Positions 1 to 31,923 of a DNA stretch of 64,000 nucleotides are shown in pieces. This DNA comes from Sphingomonas naasensis (GTDB taxonomy: Bacteria; Pseudomonadota; Alphaproteobacteria; Sphingomonadales; Sphingomonadaceae). The DNA lies in the NCBI RefSeq assembly GCF_004792695.1, contig NZ_SRXU01000003.1, positions 248,001 through 312,000 of the forward strand, read 5' to 3'. The translations under genes were made by a program, and so were the position numbers. The number at the start of each line of letters is the position of its first letter. The first letter of the stretch is position 1. The notes under the pieces are model-generated. The model saw only the letters and a list, made by a program, of their open reading frames with translations. It ran no database searches and was not told where the DNA came from.

Positions 1-1
1 G

Positions 2-52: not shown

Positions 53-71
53 CAAGCGCGGGGGAAGCGCC

Positions 72-1091: not shown

Positions 1092-1121
1092 AACACGCCT
1101 TCGCAGGAGAAGAACAAGCCC

Positions 1122-2432: not shown

Positions 2433-2440
2433 GGCTGACT

Positions 2441-2459
2441 CCCCTCCTGCAAGGAGGGG
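2441..2459. repeat. small GC-rich hairpin just after the permease stop
   Basis: CCCCTCCT, a three-base loop and AGGAGGGG form a perfect 8-bp stem 8 bp after the permease stop codon. It is followed by GCCGGAGGTGGG rather than a T-run, so it is not a classical terminator. It resembles the dispersed short palindromes common between genes in high-GC alphaproteobacteria. It may stabilise the 3' end of the message. Whether it is dispersed in this genome is not testable here. Confidence 0.5.
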
Positions 2460-2510
2460 CCGGAGGTGGGCGCGCGCGGAAGCGCCCATCGAACCGTCTG
2501 GAATACAGAA

Positions 2511-2540
2511 AGGCCGGGCATCGAGCCCGGCCTTTTTCTT
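2511..2540. terminator. Rho-independent terminator between convergent sugar operons
   Basis: AGGCCGGGC (2511-2519) pairs perfectly with GCCCGGCCT (2525-2533) around a five-base loop and is followed by a T-rich tract (TTTTCTT). On the minus strand the same stem is followed by TTTCTGTATT, so it can also stop transcription from the GntR-side operon. It sits between the permease and the converging regulator gene. Confidence 0.9.
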
Positions 2541-2566
2541 ACCCTACCCGCCCCGGGGAGGAGAAT

Positions 2567-3355: not shown

Positions 3356-3399
3356 CGCTCGATCCTAGCGCTGCGGAGGGGCCGGGTACAACTGGTCGA

Positions 3400-4908: not shown

Positions 4909-4924
4909 GGTCGGCCTCTTGGGA

Positions 4925-7044: not shown

Positions 7045-7960
7045 GCCGCTTCCTTCCCCGACGAAAGGCGATACTGGACCATCGCCGCGATCAGGATCAT
7101 CGCGAACAGCACCTGCGCCGCGGCGGCGGCATAGCCCAGCTCCCATTGCCGCCAGCCGGCCTCGTAGATGAACAGCACGATCGGGCGGGTGGAATTGTTC
7201 GGGCCGCCGAGCGTCATCAGCTGCGGCTGGCCGAACAGCTGGAATTGCAGGATCACTTCGATGATGATCACTAGGAAGAAGGTCCGCTTGATCGCAGGCA
7301 ACGTGATCCGCGTCAGCGTCGTCCAGCGCGAGGCATTGTCGAGCGCGGCGGCCTCGTAGAGATCGCGCGGCACTTGCTGGAGCGCGGCGAGGAACAGCAC
7401 CATCGGCAGCCCGATGCACCACCAGATGGTGGTCACCGCGATCGCCGGCATCGCCAGCCTCTCGTCATTGAGGAAGGCGATCGGCGTCTTGCCCAGCGCC
7501 TCCGCGGTCACGCCGAGCAACCCACCATCGGGCAGGAACACCAGCCGCCAGACCAGCGTGACCACCGTCACCGACAGCACGGTCGAGGCGAAGAAGATCG
7601 TCCGCAGCACCGCCGCCCAGCGCTCTTGCCGGTTGAGCACCAGCGCGAGACCGAGCCCTGCGAGCGTGAGGAACGGCACCGTCAGCAGCACGAAATAGAA
7701 GGTGTTTGCGACTGCCTTGAGGAAGATCGCGTCGCCGAACAACCGGACGAAATTGGCGAGGCCGACCCAGCGTTCGGTGCCGAACAGATCGCCTTTGGTG
7801 GTCGACAGCCACATCCCCATCGCCAGCGGCACGACGAGCATCGCGACGAAGACGAGCAGATAGGGCGCTACGAACAAGGCGCTGCGCCAATCCTGCCTGC
7901 CCCGCCCCCTCGGCACCGGCACGGTGAACGCTGCAGCGGGCTCGACGGCGACGCTCGGCA

Positions 7961-7961
<1 letters not shown>
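7041..7961 (-). CDS. ABC sugar importer, permease (MalF/UgpA type)
   Basis: 306 residues with a short cytoplasmic N-terminus and six membrane helices. The first is SALFVAPYLLVFVAMLVVPLAM. The EAA loop reads YEAAALDNASRWTTLTRITLP. Start ATG 7961 overlaps the stop of the ATPase gene by one base (TGATG). It pairs with the downstream MalG-like permease to form a heterodimeric channel. Confidence 0.92.
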
Positions 7962-9055
<1,094 letters not shown>

Positions 9056-9833: not shown

Positions 9834-12800
9834 TCAGGGCAGCGGGTTGGTCGGCGTCTGCGCGGTGCCTGCCAGCGGCGCCACCGCCGACCCCGTCAGG
9901 CTGACATTGACCGTGGCCGCGCTGGCGACTGGCGTGTTGCCCTTCGCGTTCCACGTCGCGACGGCATCGTCATCGGCGCCGGCACCCCCTTCGACGAAGC
10001 CGGTCAGGAAGAGCCGGTTGGTGTTGGTCACGTCGGAGACGCGCAGGCGCAGCACGTTGGTCGGCCCGCCGGCGGCGATCGTGTTGTTGGCGATGTCGGC
10101 ATAGACCTGGTTGGACTCGCCCGCGGTGGACGAGCCCGAGATGATGTTGATGTCCGCCACCGCGGTCGTATCGGAGTTGATCGTGTTGCCGTTCACCGTC
10201 GCGTCGAGCCGCGCGGTATTGAACCGCGCCTGCATGTCGATCATCGAGCTGCCGTTCGCCGCACCGGCGGTGATGTTGTTGTTGCTGATGGCGACGATCG
10301 TCTGCGAGGTCTCCTGCGCGACCACGCGCACGCCCGATCCGCCCGCGCCGCTGCCGTTCGCGGTGAGGGTGTTGCCGGCGATGCGGCCCATCACATTGGC
10401 GTCGAGGAAGGACGTGATGTTGATCGACGCCCCGCCGCGCGACTGGATGGTGTTGGTGTTGATGTTGAAATTGACGTTCGCGCTGTCGTTGCCGTTGATG
10501 TCGATGCCCGCGCCGATATCGGCCTGGCTGTCGATGACGTTGTTGACGATGTCGACATTCACCGTCGAGGTGTCCTCGCCGATGATCTGGATGCCCTGAG
10601 TCCGCAGGCGCAGGAAGTCGCTGTCGACGACGTCGATGTTCGTCGTGCCGGTGCCGAAGGCGCGGAACTGGAGGCCGCCTTCGCCAGTGCTGCTGACCGC
10701 GCCGCCCGACGACACGGTCTGGGTATCGCGGAAGATCACGTTGTTGAGCGTCAGATTGAGGCTCATATTGGTGTTGACGATGTCGAGGGTGTTGGTCTCC
10801 GAGAAGCGGATCTCGGTATTGGTCAGTGACGAAGTCCCCGACAGGTTGTTGAACTCGATGCCGCTCTCGTTCGCACCGTCGCCGGCGCCGTCGATCAGGC
10901 TGTTGTTGAGCTGGAAGTTGCTCACATTGATCCCGGTGATGCCGTTGTCGGCGATGGTGCCGGTGATGTTGATGTTCTCGAACACCGCAGTGGCGACCGT
11001 GCTCATATAGATTGCGCCGTTCGCCGTGGTCAGGTCGAGATCCTGCCCGGCCGCCTGGCCAGTGGTGCTGGCGCTGGTCAGGTTCAGATTGGCGATATTC
11101 ACTAGCGCGGTGTTGAGCAGTTCGATGCCGCGCTGGGTGATGTTCGTGATCGTGCCGCCCGAACCGTCGGTGGTGCCGGAGCCCGTGATGGCGAGCCCGG
11201 CGGCCGACCCGGTATTGTTGAGCACGATGCCGCGCGTGCCGCCGTTCGCCGAGACCGACAGGAAGTTGAGCCCGCCTACGGCGATGTTGGTGTTTACGAG
11301 GTTGAGCGCGATCCCGCCCACAGAGGTGATCGTGTTGTTGCTGCCGGTGATCGCCAGCGAGCCTGCGCCCGCGGTGGTCGAAGTCGCGGTGATGCCGCGT
11401 CCGGTCGTCGTATCGATGTCGAGATTGCCGCCGGTGAACGAAACGGCCGCGCCGGTGGCGTTGGTGTTGTCGAACTGGACCGCGTTGGTGATGCCGGTGC
11501 TGAGCGTCTTGGTCGCGCCCGAGAAGGCGATCGTCCCGCCGCTGTTGTTGTTGAGCAGGATGCCATTGGCGTTGCCGCCGGTCGCCGAGAGGCTGCCCGA
11601 GAAGGCAATTGCGCCGCCGGTATGGTTCGCGACTTCGACGACGTTGCCCGCGCTGGTCTTGCTGATCGCCGCCGCGACGGTGACGCTGCCACTGCCGCCG
11701 GTGATGTTGACACCATCGCCGCCGACGGTCGCCGCGATCGTGCCGCCGTTGATCGAGATCGCCCCGGTCGCGCCCGCCGCGCCGATGATCGACACACCGT
11801 GGCCGGTCGTGTTGTTGATCGTGACGGAGGCGAAGGTAACCGTGCCGTTGCCGGAGCCGTCGACCTCGATGCCGTCGCCGCTGATCGTGCCGGTGCCGAT
11901 CGTCGTCGCGCCGAAGCTGACATTGGCGGTGGAGCCGTTGCCGACGAAGATGCCGTCGTTGCCGCCGCTCGTGGCCGCGACGCTGGTCGTGCCGCCGCTG
12001 AACGCCCCGCCGCCGCTGCTGTCGAGATTGGTGAGGTTGATCGCGATGCCGGCCACCGTGCCGGTGTTCTGGAGCGAGGCGAAATTGATACCGCCCGCGC
12101 CCGCGAAGACGCCGCTCAGATTGGCGACCTGGCCAGTCGCGGTCTGGATGCTGTTGCCGGCACCCGTGACGACCACGGTGCCGCCGCCGGTCGCGCTGAA
12201 GCCCGTCCCGCTGGTGGTGACGATGTCGAGGCCGTTGCCGCCGGCGGCGGGCGCGAAGCTGATCGTCGCGCCGGTGTTGTTGGTGAGCGTTACCCCGTTG
12301 TTCGCGGTGGTGGTGAGGCTGATCGTCTGGCCAGTGAAGGCCAGGGTGCCACCGACGTTGTTCGACGCGCTGATGCCGAGGCTGGTATCGGTGATGTTGC
12401 CCGAAAGCGTCGCCGTGCCGCCGGTGCGGTTGGTCGCCTCGACCGAGCGCGATGCCGCGCCACTGGTGGTCACCGTGCCGCCATAGTTGAAGGTGAGCGC
12501 ATCGCCGGCGAGCGAGACGCCGCGGTTGGTCGCGGTGATCGCGCCGCCGGCGATGTTCACCGTGCCGCCGAGCGTGCCGGCGGTGCGCTGGACGGAGATG
12601 CCGTTCGCGCCACCGGTATTGCTCGCGCTGGCAAAGGCGAGATTGGCGGTGGTCGTCGTCGCGCCCGTATTGGTGACGCTGAGCAGCGTGCCGCTGGTCG
12701 TGACGATCGAGTTGCCGCTGCCCTGGACGTTCACCGTGCCGCCGCCGGTAATGAGCATGCCGGTGCCGGTGGTGCCCGTGATGTCGAGACCGGTCCCCCC

Positions 12801-15800
12801 CGCGTTGAACGTGATCGTCCCGCCATCATTGCCCGACAGGCTGACCACCGTCCCCGTGCTGGCGATGCTCATCTGCCCGTTGAAGGCGATCGCCCCGCCA
12901 TTGCTGTTGATGACCGAGATCACCGTGCTGGCATTGGAGAGGTTGCTGCTGATCGCGCCATTGAAGGTCGCGGTACCCGCATCATGTGCGTCGATCTCGA
13001 CCGCGGTGCCGTCATTGTCGGTGATCGTGCCGTCGAAGGTCAGGTTGGCGCTGCTCAGCAGCGAGAAGGCGTTGCCCGCGCCGTTGTGCGTGATCGCGGT
13101 GCCCGAGCCGAAGGCGAAGGTGCCGGTAGCGCCGTTGTAGATGTCGATGCCGGCATTGCCGCCGTTGAGCGTCGTCGTGCCGGTGAAGTTATAGGTACCG
13201 TCGGCATTGCTGAACTGCATGCCGGCGCCGCTCGTCGCGTTGATCGTGCCGGCATAAGCGACGGTGCCCAGCGTGTGATTGCCGGTGAAGTTGAGCACCA
13301 GCCCGCCTGCCGCCTGGGTGATCGAGCTCGCCGCATCGAAGTTGAAGCTCGCGGTGCCGCCGCCGATGGTGAGCGCCGACGCGGCCGCCCCCGCGACATC
13401 GACATTGGTCGCGTTGATCGTGCCGCCCGGCGTGGTGAAGGAAAGCCCGGTCGCCGCGCCGCTGATGTTGACGTTGGTCAGCGTGGTTGTTCCGGTGGCG
13501 TTGTTCAGCGTGATCGAGGTGCCGCTCGCGCCGGTCGCCGTCACGTTCGAGATCGTGCTGCCGGCGGCATTGAGCAGCACATCGTTGGTGTTGCCCGTGA
13601 AGGTGGCGTTGTCGATCGTCGTGTTGGTCGAGGGGGTGATCTCGACGCCATAGCCGCCGACCTGGTTGAAATTGCGGATCGTCATGAAGTCGACGAGCGT
13701 GCCGGTGGCGCCGGCCGTGTCGACGATGCCGCGCAGCGCCCCCGCCGGCGAACCATCGAGGATGAAGCCCGAGATCCGGTTGCCGCTCGCCCCGAGCGTG
13801 ATCACGTTCGCGCCCGCTGCCGAGGTGAGCGTCGCCGCGCCGGCGGCGGTGGGATCGGCGATGTTGATGGTGTTGCTCGACAGGATGATCGTCGAAGGCA
13901 CGGTGAGCACAAGTGCCAGTGGCCCCTGCCCGAAGCCGCGCACCTGGGTATCGGCGATCAGCGCGAGCGTGTCGTTGCCGTTCGATCCGGCGGCGCTGAT
14001 CGCATTGCCGTTGTTGATCAGCACGATCACGTCGGTGGACGCCAGCGCCAGTTCGGCAGCCGCGAGCGTCATCGGATTGGCGCCGTCGGCACCCGAGCCG
14101 TTGCCGCCGCCGGTCGCGCCGTTCGAATCGACGAACCAGGTGCGGCCAACCCCGAAGCCGAGGCCCGGGCTCGCACCGAAAGTGACGTCGGCGAAATTAT
14201 AGGTGCCGAGCGTCGGCGCCGCGGCCGCATTGATGCCGGTCCCCGCGGAGAGGGTGGACGTGCCGTCGGTCGCCGACTCGCCATCGCCATAAGTGAAGGT
14301 GGCGTTGGTCGTCGCATTGAGCCAGACGCCGGTGCCGACTCCCGAGATCGTGGCGCTGCCACCGCCGACGGCCGCATCACCGAGCCGGATCACTTGCGCG
14401 CCGGTGGCACCGCGCAGATCGACTGCGATCGTGCCGGCCGCCGAGGACGAGGTCACGTCGAAGTCGGTGGTGGTGATCGCCGCCGACAGCGCGGCGTTGT
14501 TGAGGTCGAGCGCAACGGCGCCGGCATTGGTAAGACCGATATCGAGATCGGTGATCGTCAGCGCCGCGCCGAGCGTGCCGTTGATGTCGATGCCGCGGGC
14601 CAACATACCCTGCAGGTTGACGGTGCCGAGCGTGATCGCGCCGCCGCCGCCGACGATGTTGGTGAGCCCGATACCGACGCTGGCGTTGGTCGAACTCACG
14701 CTCGCGAAGTTGATGCCGCTGGCGCCGATCGTCACGCCGTTCAGTTCGATGACCGAGTTTCCGGTAGCGCTGATCGTGTTGCCCGCACCGCTGATGTTGA
14801 GCACGCCACCACCGGTGGCGACGAGGCCGCTGACTCCGCTGGTGATCGCCAGCCCGCCATTGGTGAAGTTGATCGTCGCGCCGGCATTGTTGAACAGCTC
14901 GAGCGCGATCGCGCCCGGCGCGTTGATCGTCTTCGCGCCCGAGAAGGTGATTGTGCCGCCGCTGTTGCTGTTGAGGAACCAACCGCTGGCCGAGCCGCCC
15001 GAAGAGATGAATCCGCCAAAGTCGACACTGCCGCCGGTGCGGTTGCTGACCTCTACCGCGCGGGCCGCGGTGGTCTTGAGAATCCCGGCATTGATCGTGA
15101 TCGCGCCGCTGCCGCCGTCGACGACGACGCCGGTACCGGTCGGATCGTTGAGGTTGCCGATGTCGCCGCCGCTGACCGTCACCGTTCCGGTCGAACCGGT
15201 GATACGGATGCCGTCGCCGCCGGTATTGTCGATGTTGGTGCTCAGGAAGCTGATCGCGCCGTTCCCGGCGCCGTTGATCTCGAGCCCCTCGTCGCCGGTG
15301 CCGGCGATCGTCGCGGTGCCGAAGCTGATCGCCGAGCTCGAGCCGCCGCCGATCCAGATGCCGTCGCTGGTCGCGCCGCTGGTGCCGGCGATCGAGACGG
15401 TGCCGCCGTTGAACGCGCCGCCGTCGAGATTGTTGAGGTTGATCGCGGTGGCGCTCGCGACCACGCCGGTGCTCGCCATCGAGGCGAAGGCGATGCCGCC
15501 CGCCCCGGCGGTGACGCCGTCGACATTGGCGACTTGGCCGGTGGCGGTCTGAAGCGTGTTGCCGCTGCCGGCGAAGACGATCGTGCCGCCGCCACTGGCG
15601 GTGAGTGCCGCGCCGCTGGTGGTGACCACGTCGACGCCGGTCCCGCCGCCGGCGAAGCTGACCGTCGCGCCAGCATTGTTGGTGAACGACAACCCGGCGC
15701 CGCTGGTGTTGTTGATGCTGACCGTGCCGTTGAACAGCGCCGCGAGCGGCGTGGTCTGGGCAGTATTGTCCTGGATCGCGATGCCGGCGGTGGTGGCGCC

Positions 15801-18800: not shown

Positions 18801-21800
18801 CGCGACGGTGCCGATGGTAGTGGCGCCGCTGTTCGAGGTCAGCGCGATCCCCGCGGAAGCCGCACTGGATACGGTGATGTTTCCGAGATTGACCGTCGCG
18901 CTCGAATTGTGAAGCGCGACGCCGGATCCCGTCGCGCCCGCGATCGTGATGTTGGCGAAGGAGAGCGTGCCGGCCCCGGCCACCGAGCCGAGTTCGACGC
19001 CGTTGCCCAGCGCGGTCGATACGACGTTGCCGAAGCCGAGCCCCGCGCCGCCGACCGCGATGTCCGCGATCGTGACCAGCGAACCCGTGCCCGCCTGCGA
19101 GATGTTGACCCCCGCCCCCGCCACGGTGAGCGTCCCCGCGCCGGCGCCCGAAAGGCCCAAAGCGGAGGTGGCGCTGGTGACCGAGATCGTCAGGTTGGTC
19201 AGCGTCGCCGAAGCCGCTGCGCCATTGTCGATCAGGCCGAGCCCGCCGCCCGCGCCGAACAGCGTCGAATTGGAAAGCGTGACGCCCGACACGCCCGAGC
19301 CGAACACCGCCGTGCCGGCCATCACGCTCTGCACGAACACGCCGTCGATGCCGCTGCCGTTCGCGAGGGTGACGGTGTTGGCCGCGCCGGTGGTGGTGAG
19401 GATCGGCGCGCGATCGGCAGCCGTGGGCGCCGAGCTGGCATAGGGATTGGTCACTTGCCCGCCCGTCACGCCGGTCAACATCACATTTGCCGGCGGGCCG
19501 CCGGGCAGCGCGATGACGTTGCTGTCGCGGAAGCTGCGCAGCAGCTGGTTGACGTCGAGAACGAGGCTGTCGTTGCCGTTGCTGCCGATCGCGTCGAGCA
19601 CATCCTGCCCGCCGGCCGGATTGTTGAGCAGGACGATGATGTCGGCGGTCGCCGCCTCGGCACCCGCGAGGCTGCCGGGATCGCTGAGCGTGCCGCTGCC
19701 GGTCGCTCCCGCGAGCACGTAATAGACCATCGCCGATGTCGCCAGCGCGCTGGTGTCGCCGGTCAGCGCCACGTCGACGAAGTCGTACGTGCCGATCGCG
19801 CCGTTCAGTCCGGTGATGACGATCGGCACCGTGGCGCCGATCGACGAATTGAGCACCGTCGCGTCGCCGTCGCCATATTGGAAGAGGCCGGTGCGCGCCG
19901 CGTTGGTCAAATCGACGCCGGTGCCGACCCCGCTGATCGCGCCGCCGTTGGTGACGATGATGTTGCCCGCGCCGGTATTGCCGGTCAGGTCGATGCCGCG
20001 CGTGCCGGTGACCGAAGCCCCGGTGATGTCGAGCGTGTTGAACGTGACGTCGCCGTTCGCCCCGGTCAGGTTCACCGCGGTCTGGCCGAGGCCGATTCCG
20101 GTGATGTCGACATCGCCGAAGGTCAGCGTGCCCGAGGATCCGTTCACCACCGTGATCGAGGCGCCGCCCGAGAGCGCGAACGCGCCGAAGCTGTAGGTCC
20201 CGTCGGCATCGTCGAAATTGAGCCCCAGGCCGTTGGTGATGTTCAGCGTCGCGGACGTCAGATCGACGGAACTCTGGTCGCCGACGGCGCTGAAGGCAGA
20301 GGGGATCCCCGGCATGCTCGCGGTCAGCGTGCCGGCATAGGTGACGTCCGCCGTCGAGCCGAGCAGCGAGAGGCCGGTCGTTGTCACGGTGACGCTGGTG
20401 GCGGCACCGAAATCGAAGGTGCCCGACGATCCGTTGGCGATGCGGATGCCTTCGGACCCGCCGGCGAGCGTCGTGGTGCCGGCGAAGTTGTAGGTGCCGT
20501 CGGCATTGTCGAAGCGGATGCCGGTCCCGTTGGTCGCGCCGATCGTACCGGTCTGGAAGGTGACCGTGCCGACCGAATGGTTGGCGACATTCACCGCGGC
20601 CTGGCCCGCGGTCGCATAGGTGAGGTCGCCCGAATAGGTGAGCGACGCGGTGGAGGAATCGATGTTGATCCCGGTGCCGCTCGGGCTGGTGATCGCAGTG
20701 CCGGCCCCGAAGGTGAAGATGCCGGCCGAGCCGTTGACGATATCGATTCCGGCATCGCCGCCGTTGAGCGTCGTCGTGCCGGTGAAGTTGTAGGTGCCGT
20801 CGGCATTGTCGAACTGCAGCCCGGTGCCGTTGGTCGCGCCGATCGTACCGGTCTGGAAGGTGACCGTGCCGACCGAATGGTTGGCCACATTCACCGCGGC
20901 CTGGCCCGCGGTCGCGTAGGTGAGGTCGCCCGAATAGGTGAGCGACGCGGTGGAGGAATCGATGTTGATCCCGGTGCCGCTCGGGCTGGTGATCGCAGTG
21001 CCGGCCCCGAAGGTGAAGGTGCCGGCCGAGCCGTTGACGATGTCGATCCCGGCATCGCCGCCGTTGAGCGTCGTCGTGCCGGTGAAGTTGTAGGTGCCGT
21101 CGGCATTGTCGAACTGCAGCCCGGTGCCGTTGGTCGCGCTGATCGCGCCGGTCTGGAAGGTGACCGTGCCGACCGAATGGTTGACCACCTCGATCGCCGC
21201 CTGGCCGGCGGTGGCGTAGGTCATGCTACCCGAATAGGTGACGGCCGCTGTCGAGTCGGCGATGCTGATCCCGGTGCCGCTCGGGCTGGTGATCGCAGTG
21301 CCGGTTCCGAACGTGAAGGTGCCGGCCGAGCCGTTGAAGATGTCGATGCCCGCGTCGCCGCCGTTGAGCGTCGTCGTGCCGGTGAAGCTGTAGGTGCCGT
21401 CGGCGTTGTCGAACTGCAGCCCGGTGCCGCCGGTCGCGTTGAGGCTCCCGGTGAAGGTCGCGGTGCCCGAATGGCCGAGGCCGGCGAGGACCAGCGCGCT
21501 GGCGGAGCTGGTGATGCTGCCGGCATAGGTGAAGGTGCCGGCACCGGTGTTGACCAGCTGGACCCCGCCCAAAGCGGTGATCGACGATCCCGCCCCGAAC
21601 CCGATATTGCCGCCGGTCGTGCCGTTCACCGAGACGCCCATCGTCGCGCCGCCGGCGACGGTAAGCGTAGTCACGTCGAGCGTGCGCCCGCCCGCGCCGA
21701 TCCCGGCGACGTTGTTCAGCAAGACCGCGATGTCGAGGCCCGCATAGCCGATGCTCGACAGCGTGACGTCGGCGGAGATGCCGTCGAGCATCAGCGCCTT

Positions 21801-24800: not shown

Positions 24801-27800
24801 CCCGCCCGCAGGCAGCATCAGCGTATCGCCGTTGAGGAAACCGAGCAGTTGCTGGCCGGCGAAGAGATCGAATGCGCCGCCCGCGCTCGCCGCATCCAGC
24901 GTGTCCTGGCCGCCGGCCGGATCGTTGAGCAAGATGATGATCTGCGCGCCCGAGGCCTCGGCGCCGGACAGGCTGCCCGGATCGGCCATCGTGCCCGCGC
25001 CCGCAGCGCCCGCCGCGACGAAATAGGTCGTCGCGGAGGTCACCAGCCGGCTGGTGTCGCCGGTCAGCGTGACGTCGGCGAAATTATAGGTCCCGACCGC
25101 GCCGTTGAGGCCGGCGATCTCGATCGGCACTGCCGCGTTGATCGTCGAGGCAGCGCCGTCGGCGTCGGCGTTCGAGCCGTCACCAAAGCGGAAAGTGCCG
25201 GTGATCGCGGCGGTGGTCAGATCGACGCCGATCCCCAGGCCGGTGATGCTGCTGCTTTCGCTGACGATGATGTTCGCGGCGGTGGTCGATCCGCTGAGAT
25301 CGATGCCGGTGCCGCCGGTGCCCGAGATGTCGAGCGTCTGGAAGCTGACATTGCCGGTCGCCCCGGTCAGGTCGACCGCGGTCTGCCCGGCACTCACGCC
25401 GGTGATGTCGACATTGCCGAAGCTGATCGCGCCGGCCGAACCGCCGACGATGGCGATGCCCGCCCCGCCGGAGAGCTGGACATCGCCCAGCATGGTGGTG
25501 CCGTCGGCGTCGAGGAACAGCACGCCCGAACCCGCGCTCGCGCTGATCGTCGCCTGCGAGAAATCGAGCACGCCGCCGGTCTGGCCGGAGACGACGAAAT
25601 TGTCGGTAGTCAGGCCTTGGGTCAGGCTGCCGAGATAGGTGACGTTGGCATTCGAATTCTGCAGCACGAAGCCGGCGACCGCGCCGTTCGCGACGCTGGT
25701 CCCGGCGCCGAAGAAGAAATTGCCCGACGAATCATTGGCGACGTTGATCCCGGCGTCGCCGCCATGCAGCGTCGCCGTGCCGGTGAACGAATAGGTGCCG
25801 TCGGCATCGATGAACTGGAATCCGTCGCCATCGGTGACGTCGATCGTGCCGTCGTGGAAGCTGGCGGTGCCGGTGTGCCCGAACGCGACCACCGTGGCGC
25901 TCGCGCCGGTGCCGCTGGTGATGTCGCCGGCATAATCGAGATTGACCTGATCGCCGAACAGGACGGCGACGCCGACCGTGTCGGTGATCGTGGCATTGGC
26001 GAACACGTAATCGCCGCTGCCGCTCAGGATCAGCCCGCCATCGGTGAGATCGAGGCTGCCGACATTGAGCACCGGCATGCCGGCGTCGGCTGCGGTGCTG
26101 CCGATCATGAAGATGCCGCCATCGGTGGCGGTGATGCTGCCGAAATTGAGCGTCAGCGCGGCATTCTGCCCGGCCAGCGCGGTATTGCCGAGCGTGTCGA
26201 TGGTGCCGCCGCCGACGATCGCGGTGAGCGCGCCATTGCCGATCAGCGCGACGCCGACGTCATTGGCGTTGACCACGTTGAGGCTGGTGAGATCGAGGCT
26301 GCCGTCGCCGAACAGGCTGAAGCCGACTCCATCGACGCGCGCACCGGCAGCGCCGACGGCAACCGTGCCGGTCACGGTCTGCGCGCCCGCGGCCGCCAGA
26401 TCGGCGTCGAACAGCACTTCGTTGGCGGAGAAGCCGCCGGTCTCGCCATTGCCGCCTGCGATCGTGATGTCGTTGAGCGCCGTCACGGCCAGCGTGCCGG
26501 CGCCGCTGCCATCGAGATTCACGACGATGCCGCCGCTCGACGCGAGGCGCAGCCCGCTGAGCGCGACGCTCGCTGCGGCGCCGTTGTCGATCAGATGGAT
26601 CGCCCCGCCCTGCCCGGAAATATCACTGTCGCGGATCACGATGTTGGCGACGCCGCTGCCGAACACGCCGGCGCCACCGGCCGCGCCCGTCTGGACGACG
26701 ATGCCGGCAAGCGTGTTCGATCCGCCCAGCGTGACCGTGTTGGCGGCCGCGACGCTGGTGGTCAGGATCGGCGCGCCCGAGCCGGCGAAGGGATTGGTGA
26801 TCAGGCCCGGGGTGAGCCCGTACAGGATGAGATTGGCGGGGCCGCCCGCCGGCAGCGTGAGCGTGTCGCCGTTGAGGAAGCCGAACAGTTGCTGGCCCGA
26901 GGCGAGATCGAACGAGCCGCCCGCGCTCGCCGCGTCGAGCACGTCCTGGCCGCCGGCCGGGTTGTTGAGCAGCACGATGATCTGCGCGCCCGACGCCTCG
27001 GCGCCCGACAGACTGCCGGGGTTGGCCATCGTCCCCACGCCCGCGGCGCCCGCCGCGACGAAATAGGTCGTCGCCGAGGTCACCAGCCGGCTGGTGTCGC
27101 CGGTCAGGGCGACATCTGCGAAATTATAGGTCCCGACCGCGCCGTTGAGGCCGGTGATCTCGATCGGGATCAGCGCGCTGATCGTCGATGCGGCACCGTC
27201 GGCGTCGGTGCTCGAGCCGTCGCCGTCGCGGAAGCTGCCGGTGATCGCGGCGTTGGTCAGGTCGACGCCGATGCCGACGCCGGTGATGCTGCCGCTCTCG
27301 ACCGTGGTAATGCTGCCGGCAAAGGTCGCGCCGGTGAGATCGATGCCGCGCGTGCCCGTGGTCGAGCTGCCGGTGATGTCGAGCGTGTTGAAGCTGATCG
27401 TGCCCGAGGCCGCGCGCGCCATCACGCCGGTGCGGCCGGCACCGAGGCCGCTGATGTTGACGTCGCCGAAGCTGATCGTGCCGGTGCTGGCGGCGCCGAG
27501 CAAGATGCCCGAAGTGCCGACCCCCGAAATGTTGGTCGTGCCCGTGAAGGTGACACTGCCATCGACATCCGCGAGCGAGATGCCCAGGGTGCTCGTGCCG
27601 CTGATCGAGAGGGCGCCGATGGTCACGGCCCCGCCCGTGGCCACGCCGTCGACACCGACGCCCACGCCGCCAACCCCGCTGATCGCGCCGCCGCCAATCG
27701 TCACCGCGCCAAGGCTGTTCTCGATCGCAAGCCCGGTGTTGCCGGCGCCGCTCACGGTCAGATTGCCGATCGTCACCGCGCCGTTGCCGGTCAGCTGGAC

Positions 27801-30800
27801 ACCGTCGCCACCAGCGCCGCTCGCGCTGATCGCGCCGATGTTGATCGCGCCGCTGTTGTTCACCAGCCGGACCGCATCGGCGGCGCTGCCGCTCACGCTG
27901 ATCGATTGCACGCTGATCGCGCTGCTGCTGTCGCTGATCGACACGCCTTCGCCGACGGTGGTCCCGCCGACTGCGATGCTGCCGAAGACGAGGTTCCCGC
28001 CGGTGACGTTCTGCACGGCCACCGCGCCAGTGGCCGAGGTGGCGGTCGACACCGAGCCGAAGCCGAGCCCGCCCGAGGTGACGTCGGTCAGCGCCAGCGC
28101 CGCGCTCGTGCCGGTCGCGGCGATGTCGATATCGGCGCCCGAGACGGTCAACGTGCCGGCGCCCGCGCCGCTCAGCGCGAGCGTCGTGCCCGAGGCCGAG
28201 GCGAGGTCGAGATGCGTCAGCTGGACCGAGCTGGTCGCGCCGCCGTCGCTGATCGCGATCGCGCCGGTCGCGCCGGCGATGTCCGAATTCTGGATGCGAA
28301 CGTTGCTAACGCCGCTGCCCTCGACGCCGACATCGCCGCCGGCATTGCGGATGACGAGGCCGTCGATCGCGCTGTTGCTGGCGAGGTTGATCGTCGCCGC
28401 GCCGGCGGTGCTGGTGGTGAGCACCGCCGCGCCCGAGCCGGCATAGACATTGGTGATGCCGGCGGGGCCGACACCGCTCACGGTCAGATTGGCGGGCATG
28501 CCTGCCCCGGTGACGGCGAAGAAATCACCATTGAGGAAGCTGACCAGCGACTGTCCGGCGGCGAGATCGAACGATCCGCCCGCGCTCGCCGCATCGAACA
28601 CGTCCTGCCCGCCGGCAGGATTGTTGAGCAGCACAATATATTGCGCGGTGGAGGCGTCCGCCCCGGCGAGGCTGCCCGGATCGTTGCGCGTGCCCGCCCC
28701 GGTCGCGCCGACCGCCGCATAATAGGCCGTGAAGCCGGCGCCGGTGAGGTTCGTGGTGTCGCCCACCAGATTGGCATCGGCGAAGTTATAGCTTCCGTTG
28801 GAAGCGTTCATCAGCGCGATGACGATCGGAATCGCGGCGCTGATCGTGCTGTTCATCGGCGTCGCGCTGCCGTCGCCGAAGCGGAACTGCCCGGTCATAT
28901 TGGCCTGGGTCAGATCGACGCCGATGGCCACGCCCTGGATCGCGCTGCCGGCGATCGTCATCACGTTGCCGGCGTTGGTCGATCCGGTGACGTTGATGCC
29001 GGTGCCCGTACCGCTGCCGTCGCCGGTGATGTCGAGCGTGTTGAACAGCACCGTGCCGTGCGTGTTGCGCACGTCGACACCGTTGAAGTTGCCGAGCCCG
29101 GTGATGTCGACGTCGCCGAAGGTGACGCCACCCGGCACGGTGCCGATGACGATGCCGTTGGCGCCTGGATTGGCGATCGTCACCAGCCCGGCGAAGTTGA
29201 TCGAGCCGGCCAGCCGGTCGAGCACGATCGCGTCGCCCGCGGTGCCGGTGAGCGTGATCGCGCCGAAGCTGATCGCCGATCCGGCCAGCGTATCCTGAAC
29301 GACGATGCCGCCGCTGCCGCTGATCGGGCCGGTGAAGTTGATCGTACCGGCCGCATTGAAGATCGCGACGATCGGCGCGGCGCCGCTGCTGTCGGTGATC
29401 GACCCGGCGAAGGTCAAATTGACGGTGCCGCCGCTGCCGGCGACTCCCTGCTCGCCGATCTGGACCGAGTTGCCGCCGCTGTTGGTGATCGTGCCGCCGT
29501 TGATGCGGACCAGCCCGGTCGAGTTGAGGATGACGAGGCCACCCCCGCCGCTGTTCGAGACGGTCAGCGTGCCGATCGTCAGCGCGTTGCCGCCGGTGCC
29601 GCCGCCCTGCACGGTGTTGAGGATCACGCCCGGGCCGGCCGCGCCGGCCGAACCGACGGTCGCGAAGGTCAGGTTGATCACCAGCGGATCGAGATCCGCA
29701 GCGGTGCCGCCCACCGTATCGATCGTGCCGTCGAGCGTGGCCAGCGTGAAGCCGTTGACCTTGGAATTGACGACGTAAAGACCGGTGGCGCCGCTGTTCA
29801 CGATATCGAGATCGGTGAAGCTCAGGCTGCCGGTGACGTCGGTGAGGAAGACGCCCTGCCCGTTCACACGCGCCGCGGTGGTGCCGACTTCCATCCGGCC
29901 GGCATTGACCGCCTGGATGCCCGCGGTGGCGGTGCTCGCGTCGAAGGCCGCCGAGCGGACGCTGACCCCGCCGGTCTCGCCGGCGCCGCCGCGGATCGTG
30001 ATGCCCGAAAGCCCGGTGACGGTGACCGTGCCGGCGCCCGAGCCGTCGATGTCGAGCACGTTGCCGCCGGTCGCCGACAGCGTCAGGTTCGACAGCGCGG
30101 TGGTGAGGTCTGCGCCGCCATCGTTGATGTCGATCGCGCCGGCACCCCCCGAGATCGTCGAGTTGGCGATCGAGACGTTGCTGCCGCCGTTGACCAGCAC
30201 GCCCGCGCCCGCGCCGCCGCGCACGGTGAGGCCGGTCAACGCCACATTGCCGAGCGTGTTGGTGAGCGCGATGCCCGCGCCGCCGGTGTTCTCGACGATC
30301 ACGCGCTCGATCGCGAAGCCGCCGACCCCGTTCGCGGCGATGCCGGTGCCGGCGCCGCGCACCGTGACGTCGCGGATCACCGAGCCTTGGCCGAGCGTCA
30401 CCGCCGCGCCGGCGGCGCTGGTGCCGACGACGACGCCGTTGGTGCCGCCCAAGCCATATTGGACCGTGCTGCCGTCGACCAGCCGCACATCGACCGCGCT
30501 GGCGCCGCCGAGCAGATATTGGTCGGTCGCGAGAGTCACGCCGGCGGTGTTGATGGTGCCGGCGTTACCGAGCGCGACGACCACGCCGTTCGCACCCGCC
30601 CGCGAGACGGCGTCCGCGATCGTCGTCGGCGCGGCGAGCGTGCCCGCCGCGCCGGTGACGCCGGCGCCGTTGGCATAATAGAAGCCGCCGAACTGGTTGC
30701 CGGTCCGCGCATCGACCGCGAAGCGCGTGGTCGTCAGATCGGAGTAGCGGCTGCCCGAGCGCGCGACATAGTCGCGACGCACCCGGTCGCCCATCTGGCG

Positions 30801-31640
30801 ATCGAGGCCGGTCGGCGCGGCACCGCGGTCGCCCGCGCGGCCGCCGAACGGAATCGACAGCCGGACATGCGCGCGGGCATCGGTGCCGAAACGATTGTCG
30901 TGCTCGACGACGCCGCCAAAGGTGAAGCGCGCGCCGCTGTCCTTGTCCTCGATGTCGAGCTCGAGCCCGCCGCGGACGCCGCGATAGCTCTCGTCGGCCC
31001 TGCGATCCCAATAGTCGAACCCGCCGACCGAGCCGCGGATGCTGGCATTGTCGCCGACCGGCAGGCGCACGCCCGCCTCGCCATTGAAGCCCTGCAACGG
31101 GATCGCCTCGAGCCGGAAGCCGCTGCGGCGCTCGATCAGCCGATTGTTCTCGAGCACCAGCGCCGCCGCACCGGTCGTCGCGTTGGGGTCGATGAAGCCG
31201 ATCGTCTGGACCTTGCTCAGCGGCAGGCGATAATTGACCCGCACGTCGAAGACCGAGGAGAAGCCCTCGAGCCCCATCGACACCGCCGCCTGATCGCGCG
31301 AGCCGATGTCCGATCGATAGAAATCGGCGCCGACATTGACGCCGATCGCGGTGTCCTCGCCGGTGCGGAAGCGGGCGCCGACCGTCGCCGAGCCGTTGCG
31401 GTCGAAGCGCTGGTCATAGCCGATGCGGCCGTCGACATAGACGAGACCCGAGTCGTTCTGCGCGACGGGGGCGAACAGCGAGGTCGATACGCCGATGTCC
31501 TTGCCGGCCTGCGCCTCGGCCTCGGCACGGGGTTTCCAGACCGGGGCATCGTTCGTCTGCCCCCAGGCCGGCGCCGACGCCGCGAGGATAGCTCCCGTCA
31601 GGCACGTCGAAAAAAGCCGCGCCTTGCTGGACTTAAGCAT
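9834..31640 (-). CDS. giant inverse autotransporter adhesin (7,268 residues) with beta-helix passenger
   Basis: A single uninterrupted 21.8-kb frame. Residues 1-28 are a signal peptide (SKARLFSTCLTGAILAASAP). Residues about 50-266 alternate short polar and aromatic strands (VYVDGRIGYDQRF, AIGVNVGADFYRSDIG, FDVRVNYRLPL, AHVRLSIPF), as in the intimin/invasin outer-membrane barrel. Then comes a helix-like RQMGDRVRRDYV (281-292), which in this family plugs the pore. Everything after residue about 320 is Gly/Ala/Ser/Thr/Asn-rich right-handed beta-helix sequence with short turns such as GDVDITGLG. The C-terminus (TAQTPTNPLP) has no barrel, so export must be by the N-terminal one (type Ve). There are no Ig-like or LysM domains, unlike intimin. 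The start is ATG 31640, with GGGGGAA seven bases upstream. It probably acts in adhesion or biofilm formation; that role is inferred. Confidence 0.88.
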   Translation of the reverse strand: MLKSSKARLFSTCLTGAILAASAPAWGQTNDAPVWKPRAEAEAQAGKDIGVSTSLFAPVAQNDSGLVYVDGRIGYDQRFDRNGSATVGARFRTGEDTAIGVNVGADFYRSDIGSRDQAAVSMGLEGFSSVFDVRVNYRLPLSKVQTIGFIDPNATTGAAALVLENNRLIERRSGFRLEAIPLQGFNGEAGVRLPVGDNASIRGSVGGFDYWDRRADESYRGVRGGLELDIEDKDSGARFTFGGVVEHDNRFGTDARAHVRLSIPFGGRAGDRGAAPTGLDRQMGDRVRRDYVARSGSRYSDLTTTRFAVDARTGNQFGGFYYANGAGVTGAAGTLAAPTTIADAVSRAGANGVVVALGNAGTINTAGVTLATDQYLLGGASAVDVRLVDGSTVQYGLGGTNGVVVGTSAAGAAVTLGQGSVIRDVTVRGAGTGIAANGVGGFAIERVIVENTGGAGIALTNTLGNVALTGLTVRGGAGAGVLVNGGSNVSIANSTISGGAGAIDINDGGADLTTALSNLTLSATGGNVLDIDGSGAGTVTVTGLSGITIRGGAGETGGVSVRSAAFDASTATAGIQAVNAGRMEVGTTAARVNGQGVFLTDVTGSLSFTDLDIVNSGATGLYVVNSKVNGFTLATLDGTIDTVGGTAADLDPLVINLTFATVGSAGAAGPGVILNTVQGGGTGGNALTIGTLTVSNSGGGGLVILNSTGLVRINGGTITNSGGNSVQIGEQGVAGSGGTVNLTFAGSITDSSGAAPIVAIFNAAGTINFTGPISGSGGIVVQDTLAGSAISFGAITLTGTAGDAIVLDRLAGSINFAGLVTIANPGANGIVIGTVPGGVTFGDVDITGLGNFNGVDVRNTHGTVLFNTLDITGDGSGTGTGINVTGSTNAGNVMTIAGSAIQGVAIGVDLTQANMTGQFRFGDGSATPMNSTISAAIPIVIALMNASNGSYNFADANLVGDTTNLTGAGFTAYYAAVGATGAGTRNDPGSLAGADASTAQYIVLLNNPAGGQDVFDAASAGGSFDLAAGQSLVSFLNGDFFAVTGAGMPANLTVSGVGPAGITNVYAGSGAAVLTTSTAGAATINLASNSAIDGLVIRNAGGDVGVEGSGVSNVRIQNSDIAGATGAIAISDGGATSSVQLTHLDLASASGTTLALSGAGAGTLTVSGADIDIAATGTSAALALTDVTSGGLGFGSVSTATSATGAVAVQNVTGGNLVFGSIAVGGTTVGEGVSISDSSSAISVQSISVSGSAADAVRLVNNSGAINIGAISASGAGGDGVQLTGNGAVTIGNLTVSGAGNTGLAIENSLGAVTIGGGAISGVGGVGVGVDGVATGGAVTIGALSISGTSTLGISLADVDGSVTFTGTTNISGVGTSGILLGAASTGTISFGDVNISGLGAGRTGVMARAASGTISFNTLDITGSSTTGTRGIDLTGATFAGSITTVESGSITGVGIGVDLTNAAITGSFRDGDGSSTDADGAASTISALIPIEITGLNGAVGTYNFADVALTGDTSRLVTSATTYFVAAGAAGVGTMANPGSLSGAEASGAQIIVLLNNPAGGQDVLDAASAGGSFDLASGQQLFGFLNGDTLTLPAGGPANLILYGLTPGLITNPFAGSGAPILTTSVAAANTVTLGGSNTLAGIVVQTGAAGGAGVFGSGVANIVIRDSDISGQGGAIHLIDNGAAASVALSGLRLASSGGIVVNLDGSGAGTLAVTALNDITIAGGNGETGGFSANEVLFDADLAAAGAQTVTGTVAVGAAGARVDGVGFSLFGDGSLDLTSLNVVNANDVGVALIGNGALTAIVGGGTIDTLGNTALAGQNAALTLNFGSITATDGGIFMIGSTAADAGMPVLNVGSLDLTDGGLILSGSGDYVFANATITDTVGVAVLFGDQVNLDYAGDITSGTGASATVVAFGHTGTASFHDGTIDVTDGDGFQFIDADGTYSFTGTATLHGGDAGINVANDSSGNFFFGAGTSVANGAVAGFVLQNSNANVTYLGSLTQGLTTDNFVVSGQTGGVLDFSQATISASAGSGVLFLDADGTTMLGDVQLSGGAGIAIVGGSAGAISFGNVDITGVSAGQTAVDLTGATGNVSFQTLDISGTGGTGIDLSGSTTAANIIVSESSSITGLGIGVDLTTAAITGTFRFGDGSNADADGAASTINAAVPIEIAGLNGAVGTYNFADVTLTGDTSRLVTSATTYFVAAGAAGAGTMADPGSLSGAEASGAQIIILLNDPAGGQDTLDAASAGGAFDLFAGQQLLGFLNGDTLMLPAGGPSNLILFGLTPGQIVNPFTGSGAPLLTNSGAGNTLNLASNTLVDGVVVDASNGSGIVAVQAANVTIRNSIVSGSQSAIRLSDGAANASAALSNLQLTGHNGAVLDLDGTNVGTLTITTLDNITVRGGNGEFFGIRGNGVTFDADLAAAGFQTVMGSLQVGTAAARIGGFGVILENSEGAADFAVDIATDGGAGLSVTGGAGGMRLGTSGGTIDAINAAGSYGLYLRDLSSFVALDSISLTGGTGVGIQNVTGVGAGGNALIVDNLTVAAGAAGAITMTGSATGSFLFGQSSSIGTTTGSAIVLSNSGASSFTYSGDVDFAGANAVLNVSGGHSGSVTFDLGTLTATSGLGLVFDNADGTYDFSSNADLAAGIAIRNGSSGTFTFTNMAITNPSASALDVRDSTASVSYSGAITYSAPVTPAVYVANHAVGTIAFGAGSLTTTGGNGLSFVNADGTYSFANTIDIDASVVGIAIGGGSSGTFDFSSAASVVTAGGAAIDVSSSTASIDYRGYAYASGGNGIKVSDHSIGTIDLSAATLALNGGTIVRFDNADGVYDFGSFATAGGSGVAILNGSAGAFTFGDVDIADLGAGQTGVNLTGATGNVSFQTLDISGTGGTGIDLSGSTTAANIIVSESSSITGLGIGVDLTNAAITGTFRYGDGSSTDADGAASTISAVTPLVITGLNAGGTYDFRDVVLTGDTSTLQTSSTIFWVQAGAAGTGTRSDPGSLAAAEASGADVILLLDTQGAGQDVIDGASAGGGLDLAANQRLLGFLNGDTVTVGGGAPANLLLFGIAGGTVTNPYAGSGAPLLTTTQAGANTVTVASGSVIDGVQIGNLDAKGVFGQGVTGVAIRNSTIFGSVNAIQIIDGGVAADVALSNLTLNASTGAVLSLIGTGGGQLSVTALNNLVINGGSAGVDAQTVTFDANLATGGIQTVAGSLSIGGTARPQDGLSLSQASGALSLALDVRNDQGVGVFASGTPGFAFALTGGTIDTINGTLTSKALMLDGISADVTLSSIGYAGLDIAVLLNNVAGIGAGGRTLDVTTLTVAGGATMGVSVNGTTGGNIGFGAGSSITALGGVQLVNTGAGTFTYAGSITSSASALVLAGLGHSGTATFTGSLNATGGTGLQFDNADGTYSFTGTTTLNGGDAGIDIFNGSAGTFTFGTGTAITSPSGTGISIADSTAAVTYSGSMTYATAGQAAIEVVNHSVGTVTFQTGAISATNGTGLQFDNADGTYNFTGTTTLNGGDAGIDIVNGSAGTFTFGAGTAITSPSGTGINIDSSTASLTYSGDLTYATAGQAAVNVANHSVGTVTFQTGTIGATNGTGLQFDNADGTYNFTGTTTLNGGDAGIDIVNGSAGIFTFGAGTAITSPSGTGINIDSSTASLTYSGDLTYATAGQAAVNVANHSVGTVTFQTGTIGATNGTGIRFDNADGTYNFAGTTTLAGGSEGIRIANGSSGTFDFGAATSVTVTTTGLSLLGSTADVTYAGTLTASMPGIPSAFSAVGDQSSVDLTSATLNITNGLGLNFDDADGTYSFGAFALSGGASITVVNGSSGTLTFGDVDITGIGLGQTAVNLTGANGDVTFNTLDITGASVTGTRGIDLTGNTGAGNIIVTNGGAISGVGTGVDLTNAARTGLFQYGDGDATVLNSSIGATVPIVITGLNGAIGTYDFVDVALTGDTSALATSAMVYYVLAGATGSGTLSDPGSLAGAEAATADIIVLLNNPAGGQDVLDAIGSNGNDSLVLDVNQLLRSFRDSNVIALPGGPPANVMLTGVTGGQVTNPYASSAPTAADRAPILTTTGAANTVTLANGSGIDGVFVQSVMAGTAVFGSGVSGVTLSNSTLFGAGGGLGLIDNGAAASATLTNLTISVTSATSALGLSGAGAGTLTVAGAGVNISQAGTGSLVTIADIAVGGAGLGFGNVVSTALGNGVELGSVAGAGTLSFANITIAGATGSGVALHNSSATVNLGNITVSSAASAGIALTSNSGATTIGTVAITTSGTGISAGGLTNTLTVGDGTIDGATVAGIVFGTGNTGTISFGNIDITGVPTAARGVDARDVGAADITFATLDITGASVTGTRGIDLTGNTGAGNIIVTNGSAISGVGTGVDLTNAARTGLFQYGDGDATVLNSSISATVPIVITGLNGAIGTYDFVDVALTGDTSALATSATVYYVLAGATGSGTLSDPGSLAGAEAAAVDFIILLNNPNGGQDVLDALGTNGNDTLVLDANQALRSFRDGNAIALPGGAPANVIVTGVMTGSVTNPYAASATTPTTRAPILTTTGAANTMTLASGSSVDGVFVQSASGFAAIYGSGAVGATVSNATLSGAGTALRLLSGGASASATLTNLSLSASGANAAAELSGAGAGSLTLAGSGIDVTHSGSGALLLIDDVLIDGANLSFGAVTSTASGAGVDLGGIVGFGDLSFGSITVAGSSGNGVALHNSGVIVDLGDVTVSGATAAGIALNANSGATTIGAIDIASSAVGITASGLTSTLTVGDGTIDGATTAGIVIGAGNTVLLDFGNIDITALQAGARGVDARVMGSGNAYFETLDIAGASAVGTVGIDLSGNNGGGAFTVNESSAITGVDIGVDLSNANRTTNFRYGDGSNVDFDLAASSINATIPIVITGLAVTGNYDFLDVTLTGDTSQLEADAFFVQDGATGVGSATNPGSLAAAQASGAAFIVLLDSQAGAGAFDTITGTLTLADGQTVLAFRNVDSFSVASGAPANVKLFNITTGSIENPFAGSGAPLLSSTDATGTIQLGGTNLIDGVVVSNTGTGAAIYGNNSAGTATIRNSAISGGGAGIDIRSGAFARVVDLQNLALRNAGNNAGALLNLNGTGGTLTVTGMANFAIDTSGGETAGLIFNTVTFDSDLATAGIQAVNAGAFTVGTSGARVQGDGVSLTNVFGALTFTDIDIANNGGTGLRVANSKANNFLLTTLDGSVDTTSGTAVDLDPLVVNMTLASVAASGGAYGVLLDQVEGSFTVNGAVNVTGATTAGIAIQDNTAQTTPLAALFNGTVSINNTSGAGLSFTNNAGATVSFAGGGTGVDVVTTSGAALTASGGGTIVFAGSGNTLQTATGQVANVDGVTAGAGGIAFASMASTGVVASATAINLNNLDGGAFNGGTVSIAGTSGATSDGIWIGGGSSSAISFGTATIAGTGDEGLEINGAGNGAISFLSTNIDNTGGDGIRITGSTGTVTVSGGDIGNLNDPTGTGVVVDGGSGAITINAGILKTTAARAVEVSNRTGGSVDFGGFISSGGSASGWFLNSNSGGTITFSGAKTINAPGAIALELFNNAGATINFTNGGLAITSGVSGLVATGGGVLNISGAGNTISATGNSVIELNGVTIGASGINFASVSSTNASVGIGLTNIVGGGGAITLGTVNLQGMLARGIDINGTLGAALTITDLDIGLTNAGAVALDLNNAALSAAITTTDFDVTSSSAAGTIAVDLRGATGAQVIRLGDAAVGGGSATISGVGTGVWLNATTNATFTYGDGESATDGTSTLSAGTGINAAAAPTLGTYNFADVTFGASPGLGFGVGRTWFVDSNGATGGGNGSGADGANPMTLAAAELALASTDVIVLINNGNAISAAGSNGNDTLALIADTQVRGFGQGPLALVLTVPSTIILSSNTINIADPTAAGAATLTSAAGANVITLGASGNRISGFILDGSPAGALRGIVDTAGATGTLVDFMTIRNFNQVGGYGVEITPSTNTTIDNATFTGNTNDVLLNAAGSTISNVTATGASGTSITLNNATGTTTLTNVNISGAATGLSFTTPGGTINATNVDVAGAAASALTIGGGTASFNFDAASSITQAAGGLVLNFTGNHTLGTVAYAGTINATSGAGMQFSNADGTYNFTGTTTLNGGNAGIDIYNGATGTFAFGSGTAITHNGAGNAFSLLSSANLTFDGTITDNDGTAVEIDAHDAGTATFNGAISSNLSNASTVISVINSNGGAIAFNGQMSIASTGTVVSLSGNDGGTITFNAGGTGLDITGTTGTGMLITGGGTVNVQGSGNSIVTTSGTLLSVTNTGATTTTANLAFASASNTGGANGISVQRTAGTLGGTVNIAGGAITATNRGVSLAGDALTFNYGGTVTTSGAASRSVEATNRTGGTATLSGNITDTSLGISASNNVGGTLAFTGQTISLTTTANNGVTLTNNTGATISFAPAAGGNGLDIVTTSGTGFSATGGGTVVVTGAGNSIQTATGQVANLSGVFAGAGGINFASLQNTGTVAGIAINLTNLDSSGGGAFSGGTTSVAATSGGNDGIFVGNGSTANVSFGATTIGTGTISGDGIEVDGSGNGTVTFASVTINNTTGHGVSIIGAAGATGAISINGGTIAATVGGDGVNITGGSGSVTVAAAISKTSAGNVVEVANHTGGAIAFSGSLSATGGNANGILLNNNSGGTIAFSGATKTLSTGITNAVQFDNTNATGAAVSFTGGNLDIDTTTGRGITATSTTAGAGSLAITGSNNTITSVGGIALNLVNTNIAVGGLNFLSVSANGGTRGIVLNNTGSAAGLAITGSGTTDGSGGTITNITQRGIELLNTALVNIANLNLTSASTTGQAAGQDLDLTTANGAIYMSTVATAVFENINITGTIADNGITGINVSNFQLNNSLIDGAGDGANESGIEFNNLSGTSSLTNTEIRFSETNTLDIVNTNMSLNLTLNNVIFRDTQTVSSGGAVSSTGEGGLQFRAFGTGTTNIDVVDSDFLRLRTQGIQIIGEDTSTVNVDIVNNVIDSQADIGAGIDINGNDSANVNFNINTNTIQSRGGASINITSFLDANVMGRIAGNTLTANGSGAGGSGVRVVAQETSQTIVAISNNNITAGAANGSSMIDMQARFNTARLDATVNGNTINSDTTAVADINIISGSSTAGESNQVYADIANNTIAAGGPTNVLRLRVSDVTNTNRLFLTGFVEGGAGADDDAVATWNAKGNTPVASAATVNVSLTGSAVAPLAGTAQTPTNPLP
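18301..18585 (-). repeat. direct repeat, copy 1 of a recent 1,452-bp segmental duplication in the adhesin
   Basis: This stretch is nearly identical to 19753-20037, with three mismatches seen by eye. The offset is 1,452 bp, equal to 484 codons. Flanking sequence in both directions is clearly related but more diverged. The pattern points to a module-sized duplication followed by divergence or gene conversion. Confidence 0.85.
19753..20037 (-). repeat. direct repeat, copy 2 of the 1,452-bp segmental duplication
   Basis: Partner of 18301-18585. The offset is a multiple of three, so recombination between the copies would delete or add 484 residues in frame. Confidence 0.85.
20551..21450 (-). repeat. 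three tandem 300-bp (100-residue) repeats inside the adhesin
   Basis: Blocks 20551-20850, 20851-21150 and 21151-21450 align with an exact 300-bp period. The first two differ at only a handful of positions; the third is more diverged towards its end. Each encodes one 100-residue unit containing TTTLNGGDAGIDIVNGSAG and YATAGQAAVNVANHSVGTV. A partial unit precedes them (20460-20550). The high identity implies recent unequal crossing-over. Loss or gain of units would keep the reading frame. Confidence 0.9.
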
Positions 31641-31923
31641 CGATGTTCCCCCGTCCGCCGGACCGTGATCAGCGGTCGGCGCTCCCGTTAAGCGTGCGCG
31701 TTTGCAGCCTCCGTTCGAGCGGAAACAGTCAAACCCCTCGGCGACACCATGTTGAGGGGTAGCACAGGGCGTCCCACGCAACAAGCGAGAGCTCCGTAGA
31801 AATACGTTGGGGCGTAGAGGAGAAAGCGCGATTTTCAGTCATGGCGGGCGCCGTTTATTTTGGCGCTTCTTGTTTGCTTCAGATCATTGGAGTCGAACCT
31901 TTTTCGATCTCACGTCGCGGCGA
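31641..31923. promoter_or_regulatory. intergenic region upstream of the giant adhesin
   Basis: 283 bp between the adhesin start and the 3' end of the quinone-reductase gene; both are minus-strand genes, so this holds the adhesin promoter and leader. A ribosome-binding site GGGGGAA (minus strand) lies just before the start. ACCCCTC (31733-31739) and GAGGGGT (31754-31760) form a 7-bp inverted repeat with a 14-base loop, possibly a leader hairpin or protein site. The part beyond 31,800 is relatively AT-rich. I see no gene, and no convincing terminator for the upstream operon. Confidence 0.45.

Follow-up and report, generated by a model that had tools for sequence, protein, structure and literature searches.

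We provide evidence that a giant gene of Sphingomonas naasensis quite probably encodes an autotransporter of the type Ve (inverse) kind, in which nine beta-helix modules are threaded through the protein's own N-terminal barrel, likely to form a long adhesive surface fibre. The gene lies in the 64-kb window analysed here (G000:C13:248001-312000, part of a 4.34-Mb assembly in 19 contigs), to which all positions without a locus name refer. It runs on the minus strand from the ATG at 31640 to the stop codon at 9834-9836 (9834..31640, stop included) and forms a single open frame of 7,268 residues; the original prediction, which gave no strand, had rightly described an unbroken 21.8-kb gene. A purine-rich GGGGGA is found just 5' of the ATG. 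The product has a mass of 697 kDa, a pI of 4.05 and a net charge of -320 (K, R, D and E counted), its sole cysteine is residue 13, and glycine, alanine, threonine and serine account for 17.5, 13.8, 12.7 and 9.0% of the composition (frame counted from an upstream TTG). A signal peptide, conserved in relatives, can be read by eye at about residues 1-27 (31560..31640, minus strand).

The N-terminal region was modelled with AlphaFold2 on an alignment of 11 sequences (model numbering +26). A 12-stranded barrel is predicted at residues 36-264 (30849..31535, minus strand): here the model contains 12 strands of at least nine residues at moderate confidence, with four shorter strands between the seventh and eighth long ones (for the model as a whole, the mean predicted local distance difference test, pLDDT, is 61.3 and the predicted template modelling score 0.43). 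A helix with a conserved QMGDRVRRD stretch is predicted after the barrel at residues 278-290 (30771..30809, minus strand; pLDDT very low, about 25-27), and downstream of it the model starts a beta-helix (block pLDDT 69-89). Both positions are close to those proposed earlier from the letters alone (barrel at about 50-266, helix at 281-292). Searching the PDB with Foldseek, as best matches we obtained intimin (4e1s, 2.8e-9), 5g26 (3.8e-9; presumably also intimin, the PDB title naming no protein) and invasin (4e1t, 7.4e-9), followed by OmpG (1.2e-7). The suggested check of the N-terminus thus returned a barrel with intimin and invasin among its three best structural matches. VIA-align scores were dropped as a discriminator, as unrelated barrels rank level with or above intimin (KdgM 18.3, FapF 16.6, intimin 16.3, invasin 16.1, NalP 15.9).

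Profile comparison relates the barrel to a family. A profile of eight giant-family members (A1) was compared with a profile of seven inverse autotransporters (A4, drawn from 10 loci found by the Pfam IAT_beta model) and, as a control, with a profile of seven classical autotransporter barrels of the genus (A6, from 10 loci, of which eight were read and one was dropped because its frame end was unclear). The former comparison reaches 95.6% (E 1.2e-8), with an alignment that spans the barrel and continues into the post-barrel VRR motif of the other inverse autotransporters, against 3.2% (E 0.014) for the control. One A4 row (L084) comes from a genome, G672, that is also hit weakly by A1; the other six A4 genomes lie outside the A1 hits. 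In addition, IAT_beta (PF11924) matches residues 52-194 of the giant (E 2.8e-4, 21.0 bits), while PDB sequence searches with the barrel, both as single sequence and as profile, gave nothing relevant. Judged from these profiles, the giant's barrel is homologous to the barrels of other inverse autotransporters.

The passenger comprises residues 318-7268 (9837..30689, minus strand) and consists of nine modules with a conserved cap at the start of each (caps beginning at residues 320, 973, 1526, 2206, 2990, 3973, 4457, 4941 and 5836); its repeat period is 25 residues. Residues 900-1600 (the end of module 1, module 2 and the start of module 3; 26841..28943, minus strand) model as a right-handed beta-helix, with pertactin and Ag43 chains among the structure matches, and right-handed beta-helices are predicted for all nine modules. 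Hence the beta-helix passenger foreseen in the original prediction is reproduced by the model, and so is its lack of Ig-like domains by the profile scan: no Ig-like or lectin profile was detected in the whole protein (three pieces scanned, E <= 0.1). A profile scan likewise found no LysM domain in the protein, and NCBIfam gave two matches, both far under their cut-offs. Conservation across the giant family is strong between QMGDRVRRD and the end of the first cap.

The opposite end of the protein was checked for a translocator or export signal. No C-terminal Autotransporter barrel (PF03797) is present in residues 4801-7268 or elsewhere in the giant, and no profile of the RTX or type I secretion system (T1SS) type was found with Pfam and NCBIfam, a search limited by the lack of profiles for many T1SS signals. 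Type I secretion is a frequent route for giant adhesins in other bacteria, and the homologues have conserved C-terminal ends rich in PLP-type endings; export in one step by type I or another route via a C-terminal signal, with the barrel likeness being incidental, might therefore be argued. We regard this as highly improbable given the signal peptide and barrel at the N-terminus, the profile link of that barrel to inverse autotransporters and the lack of any RTX or T1SS-type match.

Under the inverse autotransporter reading, the chain would cross the inner membrane by Sec, the BAM complex would insert the barrel and the passenger would exit as a hairpin with its barrel-proximal end leading. 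The cap right after the barrel would nucleate beta-helix folding outside the cell, so that folding would proceed from N to C and pull the remaining passenger out; the stretch from QMGDRVRRD to the first cap would be the nucleus of this process. Surface display, adhesion and N-to-C folding are what we infer for the giant, the adhesive role by analogy with family precedent. A beta-helix rises 0.48 nm per turn, which together with the 25-residue period would yield a fibre length on the order of 130 nm if the modules are stacked end to end; its reach would be set by gain and loss of whole modules.

The gene is real, as homologues, long frames in relatives and purifying selection exceed what chance would give. 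We found 38 homologues of 4,053-7,313 residues and seven further ones of 1,332-3,673 residues, the latter including partial or truncated proteins and an identical prefix. The number of caps (2-9 per protein; 5-9 in each of the 38 long homologues) tracks protein length, with r 0.93 over 46 proteins including the query. Named relatives belong to Sphingomonas and in one case to Sphingosinithalassobacter, and are called hypothetical, S-layer family or beta-helix repeat protein in the database. Of 201 genomes of the genus, 14 (counting this one) have a match: in 12 of them the open frame is 5,060-7,766 codons long, and the remaining two have frames of 2,800 codons (the named copy of this gene, on a 13,244-base contig) and 1,731 codons (G235, a single contig with 88% completeness). 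At the family level 2 of 149 sampled genomes match (own included), the other match being weak and covering 82 residues. The ratio of non-synonymous to synonymous substitution rates (dN/dS) is 0.31 (0.169/0.542) against the collinear relative in G248 (7,190 residues) and 0.37 (0.173/0.471) against that in G259 (7,745 residues). Per block of 400 residues, the corresponding ratio of proportions (pN/pS) is 0.23-0.61 and 0.25-0.68, respectively, and thus below 0.7 in all blocks compared; repeats are possibly misaligned in places and single blocks should not be over-read. The gene is under purifying selection along its length.

A number of observations weigh against or limit this picture. The giant's own IAT_beta score (21.0-21.7 bits) is just below the cut-off of 22.3, a scan of residues 1-2400 as one piece does not list IAT_beta, and a six-frame IAT_beta search of the own genome gives no match. 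The original structural reading is supported nonetheless, as none of the refuting conditions suggested beforehand occurred; in the profile check, seven of eight family N-termini match IAT_beta at E <= 1 (best 4.4e-6). Furthermore, module 5 contains a 300-bp tandem array of 3.3 near-identical copies (20458..21438, minus strand), which makes the exact protein length dependent on the assembly, and a database protein identical to residues 1-3,673 stops at this array. Alternatively, the real protein may be smaller, with part of the 7,268 residues being an artefact of assembly or gene calling; the shorter or partial homologues and the 1,731-codon frame of the single-contig genome G235 would also conform to this. 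This is nonetheless very unlikely: collinear relatives of 7,190 and 7,313 residues show 69 and 73% identity along the full length, frames of 5,470-6,195 codons are found in three of the four single-contig genomes of the genus that match, and purifying selection acts along the whole length.

Outside these genomes, six Aminobacter plasmids carry a relative of the giant, with 33-34% over the whole barrel-plus-first-cap query. This protein (WP_263008247.1, annotated as hypothetical protein) has 4,158 residues in the two loci fetched. Its first 400 residues match our own profile at E 2.6e-58 and IAT_beta at 31.6 bits, whereas the whole protein has no IAT_beta match at E 0.01 and is missed by the A1 profile at default filters, which indicates that HMMER filters lose barrels that precede long repetitive passengers. 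One other genus of the class shows barrel hits in 4 genomes, with frames of 4,120-4,457 codons. Directly 3' of the Aminobacter giant gene, three phage-tail-collar-type proteins are encoded (L034 32595-35680; one of the three was scanned).

Across the class, the A1 profile finds matches in 25 of 385 genomes, the source genome among them. At E 1e-2 with default filters, 29 loci together with L034 and L002 yielded 29 frames (a few being one gene seen in two loci). Nineteen of these match to profile position 300 or further, i.e. into the cap, and ten stop short of it, where the sequence stretch ends or a different C-terminal part follows. L034, L056, L073 and L002 gave no frame at default filters; with the filters off, the first three match beyond position 300 (E 4e-56, 1.6e-25 and 1.1e-18) and L002 matches weakly (9e-5). 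Ten proteins chosen from these, 538-849 residues long and in one case truncated where the locus stops, were scanned against Pfam domains: nine have IAT_beta, eight Beta_helix and seven both above the cut-offs. By these matches, barrels followed by one beta-helix are common among Alphaproteobacteria. As this pairing exists in relatives of ordinary size, the giants appear to have arisen by tandem expansion of the single-module form within a wider branch, the order being suggested by the sizes. Phylum-wide, a single-module profile matches 14 of 398 genomes (own included), of which eight others belong to the same class and five lie outside it with matches limited to barrel segments.

Giant size alone is not unique among inverse autotransporter barrels either. 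The complete-looking 1.86-Mb alphaproteobacterial genome G544 (C1, L090-L093) has frames with such barrels of 12,720, 9,595 and 10,334 codons; two barrels scanned are above the IAT_beta cut-off, one being followed by a Calx-beta match. The original prediction needs correcting in two points: the design is no one-off, since alphaproteobacterial proteins of ordinary size have it too, and other inverse autotransporter barrels head large proteins as well. At the other extreme, several short alphaproteobacterial IAT_beta proteins of about 300-365 codons (L080-L087, L089) stop shortly behind the barrel, and some of these loci have a second small gene directly behind the first; these are barrels without a passenger of their own. 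Classical autotransporter barrels occur as well: PF03797 matches the own genome five times (four above the cut-off), and in another genome of the genus an open frame that is 6,149 codons long contains such a barrel (G150:C27:249214-249984).

Downstream of the giant gene and convergent to it lies an IalB-family gene (PF06776; 9186..9797, plus strand), which is a possible partner only; one more, weaker IalB match is found elsewhere in the genome. IalB adjoins the giant gene in all six clade-1 loci where this side is covered by sequence (the window being one of them) and in both Aminobacter loci (L034 and L035 19059-19607, minus strand; upstream and divergent), in none of six clade-2 loci, and is not found within 100 kb on the same contig in 14 other A1-hit genomes of the class, several of which have short contigs. 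A role as general partner was rejected as the association is limited to clade 1 and Aminobacter; from its position, IalB may be a partner of the giant in these two lineages. Alternatively, the barrel could be an anchor only, with the passenger reaching the surface otherwise, as an anchored S-layer-like or adhesin protein. IalB as a possible accessory factor, the S-layer family names of some database entries and a passenger far longer than is typical of type Ve would fit this. Nevertheless, we consider it unlikely: no secretion partner is conserved beside the gene in all lineages, and the barrel groups with those of inverse autotransporters, whose known members translocate what follows (PMC6555100).

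Upstream of the giant gene we find an alcohol-dehydrogenase-like gene, present in 12 other loci with 79-87% identity (several of these loci are duplicates, the same genome having two ids), and a citrate-transporter-like gene. A sigma-70 consensus scan of the upstream region found none, and Rfam gave two matches there, both below the gathering score. By eye, an element GCTTGTTGC...TGTGCTA (31760-31786, minus strand, 110-150 bases 5' of the start) is conserved among clade-1 upstream regions and could mark a promoter; the output of the sigma-70 scan does not contain it. The own genome also encodes TamB. Elsewhere in the window, an RHS-repeat protein of 1,444 residues is encoded at 35384-39718 (plus strand), followed by an IS200-like transposase gene (40260-40979), and positions 1-9055 hold an arabinoside-use cluster (GH43, MFS, GntR, arabinofuranosidase and a sugar-type ABC transporter).

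Type Ve passengers exit as a hairpin in the N-to-C direction, with the folding of Ig-like domains as the driving force (PMC6555100, PMC8151025), type Va beta-helix passengers often carry an autochaperone at their barrel-proximal C-terminus (PMC5767081), and no autochaperone has been identified in inverted autotransporters (PMC8151025). In reviews, the passengers of inverse autotransporters are described as Ig-like or lectin-like (PMC6555100, PMC7697752) and a 2019 paper calls the proteins almost exclusively gammaproteobacterial (PMC6714894); alphaproteobacterial inverse autotransporters as such are already known from a sponge-symbiont paper (PMC10947273). The literature searched, available partly in excerpt and with Leo 2015, Heinz 2016 and Tsai 2010 outside the search, contains no inverse autotransporter with a beta-helix passenger, no paper on single-module alphaproteobacterial proteins with IAT_beta and Beta_helix, and no paper with both 'inverse autotransporter' and 'Sphingomonas'. 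Within the family, a beta-helix fibre whose front end leaves the cell first would represent a new design. With IAT_beta found in 44 of the 385 alphaproteobacterial genomes, and one branch using beta-helices, our results contrast with the gammaproteobacterial, Ig-like or lectin-like picture. We lean towards a distinct alphaproteobacterial branch which folds its beta-helices from N to C with the first cap as an N-terminal autochaperone, and in which Sphingomonas and Aminobacter grew surface fibres of at least 100 nm by module duplication, their reach evolving by gain or loss of whole modules. It becomes testable whether vectorial beta-helix folding can drive N-to-C secretion or a C-terminal nucleus in type Va style is needed. 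If true, this would also explain the Sphingomonas proteins of 4,000-7,300 residues now named hypothetical, S-layer family or beta-helix repeat protein.

In comparison with known systems, the giant shares with intimin and invasin (type Ve, PF11924) the order of signal peptide, N-terminal barrel (12 strands predicted) and C-terminal passenger, with a homologous barrel; the helix predicted behind it at very low pLDDT may correspond to their helix or linker. It differs in a passenger of tandem beta-helix modules where theirs has Ig-like and lectin-like domains, in its 7,268 residues, in that no LysM was found, and in its alphaproteobacterial host. The giants of G544 are alike in size and in N-termini above the IAT_beta cut-off; most of their scanned passenger has no profile match, but its composition and the Calx-beta match point to Ig-like or Calx-beta repeats rather than to beta-helices. 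The single-module alphaproteobacterial proteins (for example L052, L055, L060) likewise have a barrel, a post-barrel RRM..RD motif and a beta-helix passenger, though with one beta-helix region in 538-849 residues (ten scanned) against nine modules. The Aminobacter protein and its relatives align throughout the barrel and first cap and have an adjacent IalB gene, but are encoded on large plasmids, are shorter (4,158 residues) and differ in the placement of IalB, which is upstream and divergent there but downstream and convergent beside the giant gene. Finally, type Va proteins such as pertactin and Ag43 also combine a beta-helix passenger and a 12-stranded barrel in a single chain. Their barrel is C-terminal, however, and the barrel profiles do not match (3.2%); with the type Va autochaperone located at the C-terminal, barrel-proximal end, the direction of folding would be reversed in the giant.
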